Positions 1,278 through 25,923 of a stretch of 50,407 nucleotides of DNA are shown here, piece after piece (positions within the stretch are counted from its first letter, which is position 1; each line of letters opens with the position of its first letter). The notes under the pieces were generated by a model. It was not told the origin of the DNA and did not search any database. It worked only from the letters and a program-made list of their open reading frames with translations. Made by a program: the position numbers and the translations under genes. The DNA is taken from IMG/VR virus record IMGVR_UViG_3300012988_000008, positions 1 to 50,407 of that record. The stretch is one strand, 5' to 3'. Source of the DNA: a virus.

Positions 1278-4200
1278 TTACTGAATTTTCTCCATAAAGT
1301 CTTGCTGTTGCCGTTGTTTGTTACGGCGATTGGCGTACGAGTCGTACAGAGACGGATCGACTTGATCGTGAGTTCGAGCAAGGGCTGACTTACGAATATC
1401 AGGTTCAAGCATATTGACAAAGAGACTAATCTCTTCCGACAATTCTTGAGTCCGCTCGGGATGGTTTAACATTTCTTGTCGATACTGTGTGATCACCTTA
1501 GACGCCTCTTCGACGACTTTAGTCCGATCCTTATTAAAGTCCGACATAGCCGAAAGATCATCCATAGCTCCCGGTTGAGCGCCCCATAAAAGGACGGCCC
1601 AAGCGGATGCAGGCGGGAGGTTTCCGACTTGAATGTTACCATTGCCCGATTTCAAGTAGCCGTACTGTTGAATGGTATACCACTTAAGAACATTGGACAC
1701 AGACGAAATATTCTTAGCGAGGCTTGCAAAAGCCCGTTCAGTCATCGGCTGTCCTGTGTCTGCACCTGATTCAGCAGACATGTACTTAAGCACTGGGCCA
1801 ATGTCATCCATGACGTCCTTAGAAATGGACCAAGTGGCGCCACCAAGAACGTCCATCGGGCTTACCTCCCCGTACTTATTCTTGCCGAAGAGGTTTCCGA
1901 CAGTGTCGCCCAACCAACCACCAGTACCGAGGCGATCCGAAATCATCATGTCCGAACCGTCGGTAATGTTGTACCAAAGGTTGTCCATGAAGCCACGGTC
2001 TATCCAGCCCAGTGGAGTATTAAGGTCAGGGGCTTCTCCGTTCTTTCCTTTGATGTAATCCGACACCACAGGGGCGAGAGGAATACCAGCAGAGCCGTAC
2101 ATAAAGGCTTGACCTAAGATCAGCCTCCAAGCTTCGGCACGAGTAAAGCGTCCCTTACCAGTGAAACCGCCGAGCATCGCTTCAAGCATACGTGCTTGAT
2201 ACGCAAAGAACTGCGTCGGAAGTGAAGCTAGTCCCTGCTGCCACCAAGCCTGTGAAGTACGAGACATGGAAAAGGCAAGGTCTTCTGCACGACCAGCAAC
2301 CGCATTAAGGAAAGCGTCTTCATTGATTTTATTAAAATCCGTTTCCAAAGACATCTTACGCCAAGCCGAACGATACGCCACAGCACGGTTAAACATTTCA
2401 CCTTCGTTGAAGAAGAAACGACCCGCTTGACGGAACTCGTCTAGCTTAGACCCAGTGACATTAAAGACAGACTTAGAACCCATAGCATTAATCATTGTAT
2501 GGGAATCGTTTAAGTCAAAGAAACCCGACTTAGACGCATGAGTAAAGTACGCCTTCATTTCTTCGGCGCTGTCAAATCCGTAAGCTTTAAACGACTTACT
2601 AAAGTTTTCGAGAAGCGCCGACTTGTCCCCTTTAAAAGCCATAAAAGCCCGAAGCGGAACAACTGACTGAAGGCCTCGGATTGCACCGGCACCGTCAATC
2701 GAATGAATAGCAAAGTACGTGTTAGCCTGCAAGAATAACTGTACAGGATTAAACATACCAAGTTTAAGATCGAAGGCCCATCCGCGAAGGAAGCCGACGG
2801 GGTTCTTGTCTTCCATGAAGTTTAGAACTGCACGACTTGCTCCGTGACGAAGACTGTTGGGGTCGGTACCCATCATCCATTCGGCAATACCGCGTTGGAA
2901 TTCTGCCGCCCTTAAGTCACCTTCGGTTTGCCAGCCAAGATTACGTTTAATAATTTCACGTTGATCTTCGAAAGCATTAAGAACATTGTGTTGCTTAGCC
3001 AGCGCGTTCGGCTTACCATTAAGCAGTGCTTGCATGGGGGTTCGAATACTCGGGTTTGGCTCAATATACTCTTGGAACGACTTAAACCAACGTTCTGCTG
3101 CACTAATCTTATAGTCAGAGAAACTGGCCAGATTAGCGATATTAAGGAAAGCCTTATTAGTAGAGGCCCAAGCATCCAGTGTGGGGGCTTGTTCTCCGTG
3201 CCAATCGACAAGGCCTTTAGTATTCTTTTGACTATAGTACAGACGACCGTGCGTACGTGCGTACTGGGTAAAACCGTCTTCAGTGTCGTCTCCCACAAAA
3301 GGGTTCAGACCACGATGATATGGCTCAGGCATTTCACGGTCAAAGTACGTAGCAAATGCTTCGTCAGTCCGATAGTTGCCGGTCTGGACTCCGTCTAAGA
3401 ACTGTTGACCAGTCGGATACCCCGGACGCCCTGCGACAATGTCGTCTAGCGCTTCTGCGGAAATATTGGGATTATCTCGAACAGCGACCCGCATACGGTC
3501 CATAGTCTTAGTCCATTCGTCCACTTGGGCCTTAGTGCCGACCATGTACGTATTGGGAGACTTAAGGAACTTTTTACCGTCCGGTTGAGTGCCCCAGTTG
3601 GTTTGCTTGGCAAAGTACTTATCTTGATAAATGCGGTGACCGCCGGGACGATACTGAAGCTGTTGGCGCTCAAGAGCAGACCGTTGAAGGTCTGTACGAC
3701 GAACAAAGACAGTGTTTACTTCTGATCCGTCGACCAAGAACTTATGGGCGTCGTCTAATTGAACTGAGACAAAACCATTGTTCTTAAACCAATCGACTTG
3801 TTCCGGAGTAAGAGCTTCGTCAAAGATTGTCCCGTCAGACGCATTTACACCACGTCCTTTGAGGCCCTTGGTGAACCCCTCGTCGATAAGGGCATTGGCA
3901 TTAGTAATAGTGCCACCAGGACCTAAGTCGACGGTAACAGTTTCTGTTCCGCGAAGAACTTTATCTTTCCACATAATATCGTTACGAATAACGTATTCGA
4001 CGTCATTGATCTTACGAAGACCGTTGTACGCCTTCCACTCGGCCTCAGAGACGTCACGACCGAAGGTACGTTGATAAAGCATATTAGCTTCGTCTAACGA
4101 CCACCATTTGCCTTGATTGTCTCCGGCTTGCCATAGTTGCGAAATACGTTCACGGCTTGCAGGGTCGACTTTAACGTCTTTGTATAAATCCCGAAGTACG

Positions 4201-20934: not shown

Positions 20935-20962
20935 TTGACACCGCTCCGCATAAGTTTATGCT
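20935..20962 (+). promoter_or_regulatory. Candidate early rightward promoter
   Basis: A perfect TTGACA (20935-20940) is followed after 16 bases by TATGCT (20957-20962, four of six consensus). It lies about 100 nt upstream of the first rightward gene. A second, weaker candidate is TATAGT at 20896-20901, whose poor upstream element would overlap a TGTATTACA repeat. I expect at least one of them to start early transcription. Confidence 0.55.
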
Positions 20963-21818: not shown

Positions 21819-22247
21819 ATGGCCCGCAAAGGTAAGCGCGAACGTATCATTGCAGCGCGTCAATCTATCATGACTGCCAACTGTAATGAACAAAAAGACC
21901 AGCCCCTGTTGACTAAAGGTATCGGCCCCGCCGGTTACAAATCACGGTCAACAGACAATAGAACAGGGCTCAAGGGACGTAACAGCGGTGTCGGTTTCCA
22001 CGGCCCACGGGGCTTTAACAGTCCCGTCTATGCTGTGTCTAAGCGGGAACAGACTAAGGGCCTCATTGGGCCTGTAGCGGGGCCTGACAAGGCAAGGCCA
22101 GCCTTTGGGGTCAATGGGTCACAGCGGTTCGCAGGAGATGAGAAGTGGGCGGCGGAGGAATTCGGTTACGACTACGCCGTGCCGGAACCGTCAGATACGA
22201 TCCTCATGAAGCACCCGCCTAAGCGCCCACGTTGGCGCAAGGTCTAA
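21819..22247 (+). CDS. Basic early protein, 142 residues
   Basis: The chain starts MARKGKRERIIAARQSIMTA and ends in a strongly basic KHPPKRPRWRKV. It is rich in Gly, Lys, Arg and Pro (TGLKGRNSGVGFHGPRGFN), with little predicted secondary structure in the middle, so it could bind nucleic acid. It is not recognised. It is the last gene before a terminator at 22259-22293. The repeated word AATCTATCAT lies within its codons 15-18. Confidence 0.6.
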   Translation: MARKGKRERIIAARQSIMTANCNEQKDQPLLTKGIGPAGYKSRSTDNRTGLKGRNSGVGFHGPRGFNSPVYAVSKREQTKGLIGPVAGPDKARPAFGVNGSQRFAGDEKWAAEEFGYDYAVPEPSDTILMKHPPKRPRWRKV

Positions 22248-22258
22248 CACCACTTTGG

Positions 22259-22293
22259 AACCCCCTGGGCGAAAGCCTCGGGGGTTTCTTTTT
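22259..22293 (+). terminator. Intrinsic terminator of the first early operon
   Basis: AACCCCC (22259-22265) pairs with GGGGGTT (22280-22286), with an inner GGGC-GAAA-GCCT stem and a GNRA-type tetraloop, followed by TCTTTTT. The right arm and tail (CGGGGGTTTCTTTTT) are the same as in the end terminator at 46534-46572. Confidence 0.88.
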
Positions 22294-22868
22294 GTCCCCT
22301 ATTATCAATGGGTTTTGATCTATCATCATTTTTATTCGTCACCCCCTGCAACCAATCCCCCCCTGTGTCATTTATCTCCCGTCAGACGGCAAGCGGGCCA
22401 AAGCGAAGGCCACCCCGTCGAACCTGCCCCCGCGAAAGCTGTCGGGGCCCTGACTACGGCGGAAGGCGTAAGCTGACTGCATGGAAAGGGGCCTACGCTT
22501 GGGGGACGTGGTGAAGTCCCGGTGACGACGGGGCTCCGTGGTCCGAAACGCCACCCCGCTTTGCGCCTAGCAAGCGCTGTCCGGGGGCATGTCATGGCGG
22601 AGTATTGGACACGTAAGCAAAACCCCCGCGCATGGTCATGTGTGACCCGCTGTGTGTAGCGTCCAGCGGGGGACAACACCTAGTGGGGTGCTCGCTGGCG
22701 TTAGGCCGGGGCACCCCTCGTGTTGTTAGCATTGAGACGGCAATCTATCATCGCCTGCTTTACACCCCGCTTTGAAGGGTCGTCAGGTTCCACCCGAACC
22801 TTGCCGTTTCTATCCTGACAACAATCCTGTTGTCGGGCTTTTCTATCTTATGTGAAAGAGACACTAAC
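22294..22868 (+). ncRNA. Candidate large structured non-coding RNA region
   Basis: About 575 bases between two intrinsic terminators and without a believable reading frame; the GC-rich core is about 22380-22810. Perfect or near-perfect helices include GGCC/GGCC with loop AAAGCGAA (22396-22411), GGGAC/GTCCC (22503-22520), GGTCA-TGTG-TGACC (22634-22647), alternative CCCGCTG/CAGCGGG (22646-22670), and a three-tier arm: ACAACAC/GTGTTGT (22673-22679 with 22720-22726), GGGGTGC/GCACCCC (22685-22691 with 22711-22717) and CTGGC/GCCGG (22695-22709). AGGTTC-CACCC-GAACCT lies near 22785-22802. Not recognised as tmRNA, RNase P, group I intron or known ribozyme. It could be a free RNA or a long leader of the next gene. 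Confidence 0.55.
22814..22844 (+). terminator. Terminator hairpin ending the structured RNA region
   Basis: CCTGACAACA (22814-22823) pairs over ten positions (one G-U) with TGTTGTCGGG (22828-22837) across an ATCC loop, followed by CTTTTCT. It lies 25 nt before the next start codon, so it could end the upstream RNA or act as an attenuator for that gene. Confidence 0.75.
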
Positions 22869-23504
22869 ATGGCTCCCCGTAAACCTAAAGCCGCTGCACC
22901 CGTTGACGCTGGCACGACTTCCATCGTTGCCCCGTTGACCTTGGAACAACGCATCGACCGGGCGATTACGCTCGACGGTACGTTTGACACTCAAACGCAT
23001 CTGCTTGCCGTCGAAACCCTTCAACACGCAGCGACTACTGGCGACTTCACCCTGTTCGCCAAGCTGATCGGTGACGTGACCACCAAGGGCGGACAGACCT
23101 TCGGTCGCGGCGTCCGGTCCCGTCGTCTGGCCCTCATCGAATGGGCCGCAGCTTTTAGCCCCATTCGCATCAACGGTGACGGTGTCATTGGCGCCCTCGC
23201 CGAAAGCGCCAAGGGTTATAAGCCGTACAACGTCGAAGGTGCGGAAGCTGTTCCGTTCTTTGATATGCCGTCCGAAAAGCGCCGTCGTGAGACGCACGCA
23301 CCTTTTGACGTCGCTGTCATCATGGGCCGCATCGGCTCCTTCAACAAGGCGATTGATAAGGCCGTCGAAAATGGCTCGCTGAACGATAATGAGGAGGCGC
23401 TCCGTCGCTTCACCGCTGACGTTCAAGCATTCGCCATCGCCAAGGCCGCCGAACTTGGCCTTTCGTCGGACGCAGCTAAGGCTCGCCGCGCCCAAGCGGC
23501 TTAA
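22869..23504 (+). CDS. Unknown early protein, 211 residues
   Basis: It starts MAPRKPKAAAPVDAGTTS; the ATG at 22869 has AAAGAGA before it, and upstream sequence belongs to a terminator. The Ala/Pro/Lys N-terminus looks flexible. The body has TLEQRIDRAITLDGTFDTQT, repeated Ala-rich helices (HAATTGDFTLFAKLIGDV; AVENGSLNDNEEALRRFTAD) and a basic Ala tail. The GC content and codon choice (GCC, CGC, AAG) are higher than in neighbouring genes, and it follows the structured RNA, so it may be well expressed. Function unknown. Confidence 0.7.
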   Translation: MAPRKPKAAAPVDAGTTSIVAPLTLEQRIDRAITLDGTFDTQTHLLAVETLQHAATTGDFTLFAKLIGDVTTKGGQTFGRGVRSRRLALIEWAAAFSPIRINGDGVIGALAESAKGYKPYNVEGAEAVPFFDMPSEKRRRETHAPFDVAVIMGRIGSFNKAIDKAVENGSLNDNEEALRRFTADVQAFAIAKAAELGLSSDAAKARRAQAA

Positions 23505-24210: not shown

Positions 24211-24262
24211 GAAGTAATCTATCATCAGCTGTCTTACGCTTCGCATTTACAAGGAAATGTTG

Positions 24263-24454: not shown

Positions 24455-24780
24455 TCGACGCCAACGCAGAAATCCGAGCGAGGCGGGACGAACTCCAAAC
24501 AGAACTGGCAACAGTTCAAACACAGGTTGCATCCCTCAATCGAAAGGCTAAGTCAATCAGAGGGGAGCTTGAACCCCTTAATCGTAAGCTTAAGACTGAA
24601 AACCTGATCGTAGGTTCGCGTTGGTATCTGCCTAGTATGAGGTACTATTCGACAACCCGCAAGGACGTTCTCGTGATTCATAAGACCGAGACATACGTCA
24701 TCTATATTCACGGAGGACAGCCTGAACGTATGGGGATGCAAGACTTTTTGAGCAAAGCCGCCTTTAGGTCCTTGACATAA
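24451..24780 (+). CDS. Coiled-coil protein, 109 residues
   Basis: Residues 5-50 form a heptad-like coiled coil (EIRARRDELQTELATVQTQV, then SLNRKAKSI). Residues 55-105 form a compact beta-rich domain with VGSRWYLPSMRYYSTTRKDV and VIYIHGGQPERMG. Such a long helix plus small SH3-like domain suggests an oligomer that binds something through its C-terminal part. Not recognised. A consensus promoter overlaps its last codons. Confidence 0.6.
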   Translation: MIDANAEIRARRDELQTELATVQTQVASLNRKAKSIRGELEPLNRKLKTENLIVGSRWYLPSMRYYSTTRKDVLVIHKTETYVIYIHGGQPERMGMQDFLSKAAFRSLT

Positions 24781-24800
24781 TCATAGGCTCGTGTTATAAT
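24772..24800 (+). promoter_or_regulatory. Consensus sigma70 promoter (rightward)
   Basis: TTGACA (24772-24777) and TATAAT (24795-24800) are separated by exactly 17 bases, a perfect consensus. It should start transcription near 24807, just before the membrane-protein genes, the tRNA and the amidoligase cassette. Confidence 0.92.
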
Positions 24801-25838: not shown

Positions 25839-25923
25839 GTCCGCGTGGTGGAATTGGTAGACACGACAGACTTAAAATCTGTTGCTAATTGGCGTACGAG
25901 TTCGAGTCTCGTCGCGGACACCA
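25839..25923 (+). tRNA. tRNA-Leu (anticodon UAA)
   Basis: 85 bases. The acceptor stem is GTCCGCG/CGCGGAC, followed by A and an encoded CCA end (25921-25923). The anticodon stem ACAGA/TCTGT encloses loop CTTAAAA with anticodon TAA at 25873-25875. A long variable arm and the T-loop TTCGAGT are present, as in class II leucine tRNAs. It would read UUA and UUG codons. Encoded CCA means no CCA addition is needed. Confidence 0.95.

Follow-up and report, generated by a model that had tools for sequence, protein, structure and literature searches.

Few large structured RNAs of phages are known, and their functions are unknown. Those nearest in kind to the RNA described here are GOLLD, whose members are often longer than 800 nt and are found near tRNA islands, and ROOL (PMC12286853). 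GOLLD resembles it in being a large, many-armed, structured RNA encoded by phages and also found in prophages, while ROOL, likewise phage-encoded and present in prophages, is of a similar size class and complexity. The hallmark of ROOL is assembly into a homo-octameric nanocage, and to our knowledge it has no counterpart to the terminator exchange with the next gene that we propose below. Attenuators and terminator-type riboswitches, which usually measure 80-300 nt, share with this locus an intrinsic terminator just before the ribosome-binding site (RBS) and a competing upstream antiterminator pairing, but the present RNA is without a recognised ligand domain and its regulation is predicted. 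A further comparison is offered by the put sites, which are short two-hairpin elements. RNA-mediated antitermination is the role of the put RNA of phage HK022 (PMC6256539). The likeness lies in a structured RNA in the early transcript, upstream of terminators, of a phage relying on host RNA polymerase, although no sequence or Rfam relation between the two RNAs was found. No earlier description of the RNA itself was found in the open-licence papers searched.

The RNA is encoded in a 50.4-kb virus record, all 50,407 nt of which were analysed and are here called the window. The large terminase of this phage is 60-67% identical to that of Roseobacter-type phages, among them Lentibacter ICBM3, filed under Zobellviridae, Cobavirinae, and about 53% identical to that of Vibrio ICP2, also filed under Zobellviridae. 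Structural genes occupy the minus strand and early and replication genes (ThyX, primase-helicase, DNA polymerase, ribonucleotide reductase) the plus strand; none of the larger ORFs listed for the window was recognised as an RNA polymerase gene. One homologue of the RNA, on contig IMGVR_UViG_3300023181_000011 (L003), was found in the same gene order (nhmmer E=5e-21), there too directly upstream of a phrog_1448 gene. The site belongs to the early block and lies between the following features:

21819-22247, plus strand: gene for a small basic protein, 5' of the RNA (ORF; aligned with contigs L003, L012 and L023, and with L121 by inspection)
22262-22293, plus strand: intrinsic terminator T1, stem 22262-22284 with a U-rich tail (scan: 8 bp and TTTCTTTTTG)
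22342-22863, plus strand: structured RNA and 3' leader, aligned to L003 3441-2924, minus strand (nhmmer E=5e-21)
22814-22842, plus strand: terminator T2, stem 22814-22837 (scan: 10 bp and CTTTTCTATC)
22836-22861, plus strand: GGCTTTTCTATCTTATGTGAAAGAGA, 26 nt identical in L003, U-tract and ribosome-binding region (window/L003 comparison)
22869-23504, plus strand: phrog_1448 gene, 3' of the RNA, early autographivirus-type (PHROG match; 56-59% identical in L003)

The small basic protein had no PHROG or Pfam match. Distant relatives of the phrog_1448 product are early genes in autographiviruses, e.g., Caulobacter phage Cd1, and with this downstream protein as a single query against IMG/VR no relative was confirmed. 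Both terminators were placed by our scan where an earlier note on this DNA, made from the sequence, had put them as the two ends of a gene-free, structured stretch, and T2 has a counterpart in L003 (2970-2953, minus strand) with an altered yet retained stem, CCUGAC/GUCAGG followed by UUUU.

A search of positions 22000-23000 against Rfam, as the earlier note had suggested, gave no match at the gathering threshold and none up to E=1, and neither ARAGORN nor Rfam matched a tmRNA, an RNase P RNA or a group I or II intron, in agreement with that note's failure to recognise any known family. The GOLLD model was not matched in Rfam, nor was ROOL at E values up to 1. The setting differs as well: at about 450-500 nt, the RNA sits in an early operon and not in a tRNA island, a single tRNA-Leu gene lying 3 kb downstream (25839-25923). 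Structurally it constitutes a new RNA family; in kind it belongs either with the attenuator leaders, as a very large one, or with the large RNAs of phages, as a further example. The tRNA-Leu gene has the anticodon TAA, L003 also carries a tRNA gene downstream of its copy of the RNA (1454-1534, minus strand), and the L003 gap around that gene folds very strongly (z -7.5).

The mechanical ORF rule yields ORFs of 60-103 aa within the stretch, and the one tested (22368-22679, minus strand) had no PHROG or Pfam match. In L003, no ORF on the strand of the RNA exceeds 50 aa from one flanking gene to the other. Translated matches between the window and L003 are short and scattered over several frames and both strands, as expected from conserved nucleotides and not from one conserved frame, so that the absence of a credible gene between T1 and T2 holds and the conserved translated frame named in the earlier note as grounds for refutation was looked for against L003 and not seen. 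The sharp compositional contrast with both neighbours that it described was overstated, because G+C amounts to 65-67% in the RNA core, up to 62.5% in the downstream gene and about 60% at the end of the upstream one. Taken by itself, the window copy has a folding energy that is only weakly unusual (z -1.8, with 4 of 100 shuffles as good), which would suit the view that the helices arose by chance in G+C-rich sequence, or that the stretch is a protein gene, and that it has no function as RNA. The L003 copy folds more convincingly (z -4.25), yet the proof of structure comes from comparing the two phages and not from folding energy.

The aligned RNAs are only about half identical, and for this reason the helices can be tested. 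A covariance model (R2), built from the window sequence and fold alone over 22549-22727, matches L003 3225-3058 with 64.9 bits (E about 1e-14). Among the 44 base pairs comparable within this span in the two phages, i.e., those with letters present on both sides, all 44 are kept in L003, 22 through compensatory double changes and one through a one-sided change to G-U, with none broken; four further pairs, in the middle tier of arm D, are absent there. When partners were slid by 1-3 columns, 36-48% of cells were paired with at most two double changes, and random reassignment of the changed letters (20,000 trials) gave a mean of 31 and a maximum of 41 paired. Because 44 was never reached, the secondary structure is real and selected; the RNAalifold energy lies 13 standard deviations below that of column shuffles (z -13). 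The comparative check proposed in the earlier note thus turned its structured-RNA candidate into a confirmed one over 22549-22727. For this span the chance-helix and protein-gene views are refuted by the 22 double changes without a broken pair, the alifold score and the lack of a single conserved frame; parts of the 5' half lie outside that refutation, and for the locus as a whole we regard a lack of RNA function as very improbable. The elements of the fold are, from 5' to 3':

22385-22419, plus strand: 5' hairpin G, GGCC/GGCC inside GACGG/CCGUC (folded separately and by Sankoff alignment)
22422-22512, plus strand: arm H, long and irregular, predicted only (folds)
22524-22543, plus strand: hairpin I, GAC-ACGG/CCGU-GUC, weak (inspection; partly in the Sankoff alignment)
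22549-22599, plus strand: arm J, three helices with loop CUAGCAA (13/13 pairs kept in L003, 6 double changes; loop CUAGCA kept)
22623-22672, plus strand: multiloop of helices A (22623-22629/22666-22672), B (22634-22638/22643-22647) and C (22648-22651/22658-22661) (16/16 pairs kept, 10 double changes; loops UGUG and GUGUGU identical)
22673-22726, plus strand: three-tier arm D, 22673-22679/22720-22726 (7 bp), 22685-22691/22711-22717 (7 bp) and 22695-22699/22705-22709 (5 bp) (15/15 comparable pairs kept, 6 double changes, 4 pairs shortened in L003)
22734-22810, plus strand: helix E, 22734-22743/22801-22810, enclosing a motif loop and helix F, 22754-22757/22784-22787 (RNAalifold consensus, folds)

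The three tiers of arm D, with their 7-, 7- and 5-bp stems, agree to the base with the earlier description, in sequence and in folds. The loops UGUG, GUGUGU and CUAGCA and the apical hairpin of arm D (CUGGC-GUUAG-GCCGG) are identical in the two phages, whereas most of the surrounding stems are rewritten, which, at the level of sequence comparison, is the mark of a functional RNA. Helix E carries double changes in the RNAalifold consensus. The 5' half (22380-22548) is less certain: hairpin G is matched by a similar fold at the corresponding position in L003, which the covariance model of this half did not confirm, and the position of hairpin I reads GUC-CCCCUU/AAGGGG-GGC in L003. This second model (R3, window only) found no significant match in L003, and conservation of arm H is therefore not claimed. 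Taken as a whole, the comparison identifies a conserved structured RNA of about 450-500 nt in the early operon of a Zobellviridae-like phage. The sequence CACCCCGCTTT occurs twice within it, in arm J (22552-22562) and in the loop of helix F (22763-22773), and also at the start of the corresponding stretch in contig L008.

Clear members of the RNA are two, the window and L003. A sequence search of 50,697 phage records with the window RNA and then the L003 RNA returned nothing related, scanning IMG/VR for the pattern of apical hairpin and motif combined, and for the extended motif, recovered L003 only, and the whole-genome search with R2 reported L003 alone. The 16-nt hairpin by itself matched 23 stretches, of which those outside L003 lack the arm, form other hairpins and were rejected as unrelated; the six matches of a pattern scan of the genome contigs are about the chance number for an 18-base pattern. 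In position, more can be found: L003, L012 and L121 each have a homologue of the small basic gene followed by about 390-600 nt of non-coding sequence that folds better than shuffles (z -4.25, -3.71 and -3.84), and L008 has a non-coding stretch at the same site that does so too (z -4.51). With filters off, R2 gives a weak match at a CUAGC loop in the L008 gap (E=0.003), the best in that contig, and its best L121 match, also at a CUAGC loop, falls within the L121 gap (E=0.16). Short blocks are common to the window and L121 (CGCCTAGCAAGCGC, with one mismatch, and GCAATCTATCATC) and to the window and L008 (GCGCCTAGCAA). When L121, L012 and L008 were each aligned globally with the window by the Sankoff method, the scores were not clearly above those of shuffles, so homology of these stretches is not claimed; it is only suggestive, and we consider them probable but unproven relatives. 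Since many other early-region gaps in related contigs also beat shuffles, folding alone is weak evidence. One such gap, in L067 (3958-4640, minus strand), spans 683 nt at 41% G+C with z -7.3 and no Rfam match and is a possible structured RNA, and in an unrelated group of phage contigs (L088, L095, L093, L105 and others) a hairpin CGCCAGCRGCTATC...GATAGCTGCTGGCG TTAGGCCGG recurs before genes, in some contigs in two copies about 3.2 kb apart.

These observations bear on what the RNA does. One possible reading, and the main rival to the leader model below, though less likely than not, is a stand-alone, trans-acting large RNA in the manner of GOLLD and ROOL, transcribed as its own unit between T1 and T2 with T2 as its 3' end, and acting early in infection in free form, possibly multimeric or protein-bound. 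It would account for the terminators on both sides, for the invariant loops UGUG, GUGUGU, CUAGCA and GUUAG, which are such as tertiary or protein contacts would give, and for the RNA, non-coding and folding well, that three further phages have at the corresponding site. Against it, the promoter scan found none between T1 and the RNA, the GOLLD, ROOL and OLE families are unmatched, and both the alternative pairing of T2 and the conserved RBS region would be superfluous for a free RNA. The scan of 22250-22700 showed no sigma-70-like promoter, as would be expected if transcription came from an early promoter further upstream, for instance the one at 20935. Behind the phrog_1448 gene, the scan found a perfect sigma-70 promoter at 24772-24800 (TTGACA-17-TATAAT, with TG before the -10), so that the next early genes need not rely on read-through of T2.

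The alternative pairing of T2 is the following:

22721-22823, plus strand: antiterminator pairing of 22721-22729 (UGUUGUUAG) with 22815-22823 (CUGACAACA) (complementarity, shuffles, energies)

When the whole RNA is scanned for complements of the T2 5' arm, the longest one in either phage is supplied by the 3' strand at the base of arm D; it measures 9 bp each time, with differing sequences. An equal complement at a matching place arose in 1 of 6000 shuffles of the terminator arms. By this complementarity, the RNA can adopt two nearly equal states: with arm D closed and T2 formed, or with the strands exchanged, the energies are -95.4 and -91.9 kcal/mol in the window and -85.6 and -87.1 kcal/mol in L003, i.e., within 1.5-3.5 kcal/mol of each other, the window favouring the first state and L003 the second. 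The locus thus has, in the window and in L003, an intrinsic terminator between leader and RBS and, in silico, a conserved, mutually exclusive antiterminator pairing, the exact register of which differs between the two. Moreover, the 26 nt over the U-tract and RBS are identical, whereas the phrog_1448 proteins are 56-59% identical.

We tentatively prefer to read the RNA as a large cis-acting leader that would control whether transcription proceeds into gene 22869 and those that follow. In this model the upstream arms would build a rigid multi-arm fold. In the first state arm D would be closed at its base and T2 formed, and RNA polymerase would stop; in the second, the 3' strand of the arm D base would pair with the 5' arm of T2 below helix E, the freed 5' strand of arm D could pair with the 3' arm of T2, the compact terminator hairpin would not form and transcription would continue. 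A candidate for setting the state is a factor that would bind the exposed AUCUAUCAUC loop. Here, transcription of the element, its switching, the regulated gene and the factor are what we infer. The earlier note had proposed either a non-coding RNA or, for the 22869 gene, a regulatory leader of great length; both are possible, and the predicted, conserved exchange leans towards the leader. A leader of such size would be unusual. The same scan found no terminator in the positional counterparts of L121 and L012, and inspection by eye shows no U-tract where the L008 stretch ends; the switch therefore cannot be the general function of the site.

The loop invoked for the factor belongs to a motif spread over the genome. 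The commonest 9-mer of the window is ATCTATCAT, with 11 copies, all on the plus (early) strand (21208, 21863, 22318, 22743, 23800, 24217, 25191, 27417, 31308, 34942 and 40861), where a third-order expectation gives about 0.1. It is common to at least five related phages, with 9 copies in L003, 14 in L121, 7 in L012 and 3 in L023, and of the 44 copies in these and the window, 41 are on the early strand; the L008 contig has none. Roughly half of the window copies have a start codon no more than about 12 nt away, and the motif is dense in promoter-proximal early genes, often between Shine-Dalgarno sequence and ATG. The frame in which coding copies are read varies from gene to gene, so that it is the nucleotides that appear to be under selection. 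By analogy with T4 RegA, the 9-mer may be the site of a regulator of translation or of RNA decay, which we offer as a lead. It is not favoured as a promoter, its contexts sharing no -35 element and several copies standing directly at start codons. Two copies concern the RNA:

22318-22327, plus strand: ATCTATCAT(C) between T1 and the folded core (motif scan)
22743-22752, plus strand: ATCTATCATC, mostly in the loop inside helix E (motif scan, folds)

The window and L003 have in common an extended block, ATCTATCATCRCCTGCYTTACRCCCC, at the 22743 motif, and in each phage the extended form ATCTATCATSRSCYGYYTTACRC occurs inside the RNA and again at the start of another early gene (window 22743-22768 and 24217-24240; L003 3042-3017 and 2172-2147, minus strand).

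With two copies in or beside the RNA, one of them in a predicted loop in both the window and L003, the RNA could be a decoy or hub, its AUCUAUCAU loop titrating a protein or small RNA that acts on the motif copies at early gene starts, with a logic like that of CsrB/CsrA. The abundance of the 9-mer on the early strand, with roughly half of its copies near start codons, speaks for this, but one or two copies per RNA would titrate poorly against about ten in mRNAs, and the L008 phage has a folded stretch at the site and no motif, which makes the decoy unlikely. Less likely again is a processive antitermination element, put- or EAR-like, by which the nascent RNA would alter RNA polymerase such that T2 and later terminators are read through. 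Its position in the early operon just before terminators would suit this role, and, as no phage RNA polymerase was recognised, the host polymerase must be managed; known elements are, however, much smaller, and this one ends in T2 and does not precede several terminators.

In conclusion, comparison of just two genomes yields strong covariation in an RNA outside Rfam and places it in the early operon, where host takeover is set. It is possible, though doubtful, that it represents a new class of large structured RNA marking the early operon of a group of Zobellviridae-like phages, one that would evolve very fast in sequence and would work as an RNA machine in free form or else as a giant switch, in concert with an RNA code built on AUCUAUCAU and spread over the genome. 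That class would comprise the window, L003 and probably L008, L121 and L012, with arms and loops such as CUAGCA as what persists. The exchange of strands between the last arm and the terminator is a testable prediction, and the RNA and the repeated AUCUAUCAU motif together point to an RNA-level layer of control in phages without a recognised RNA polymerase of their own.
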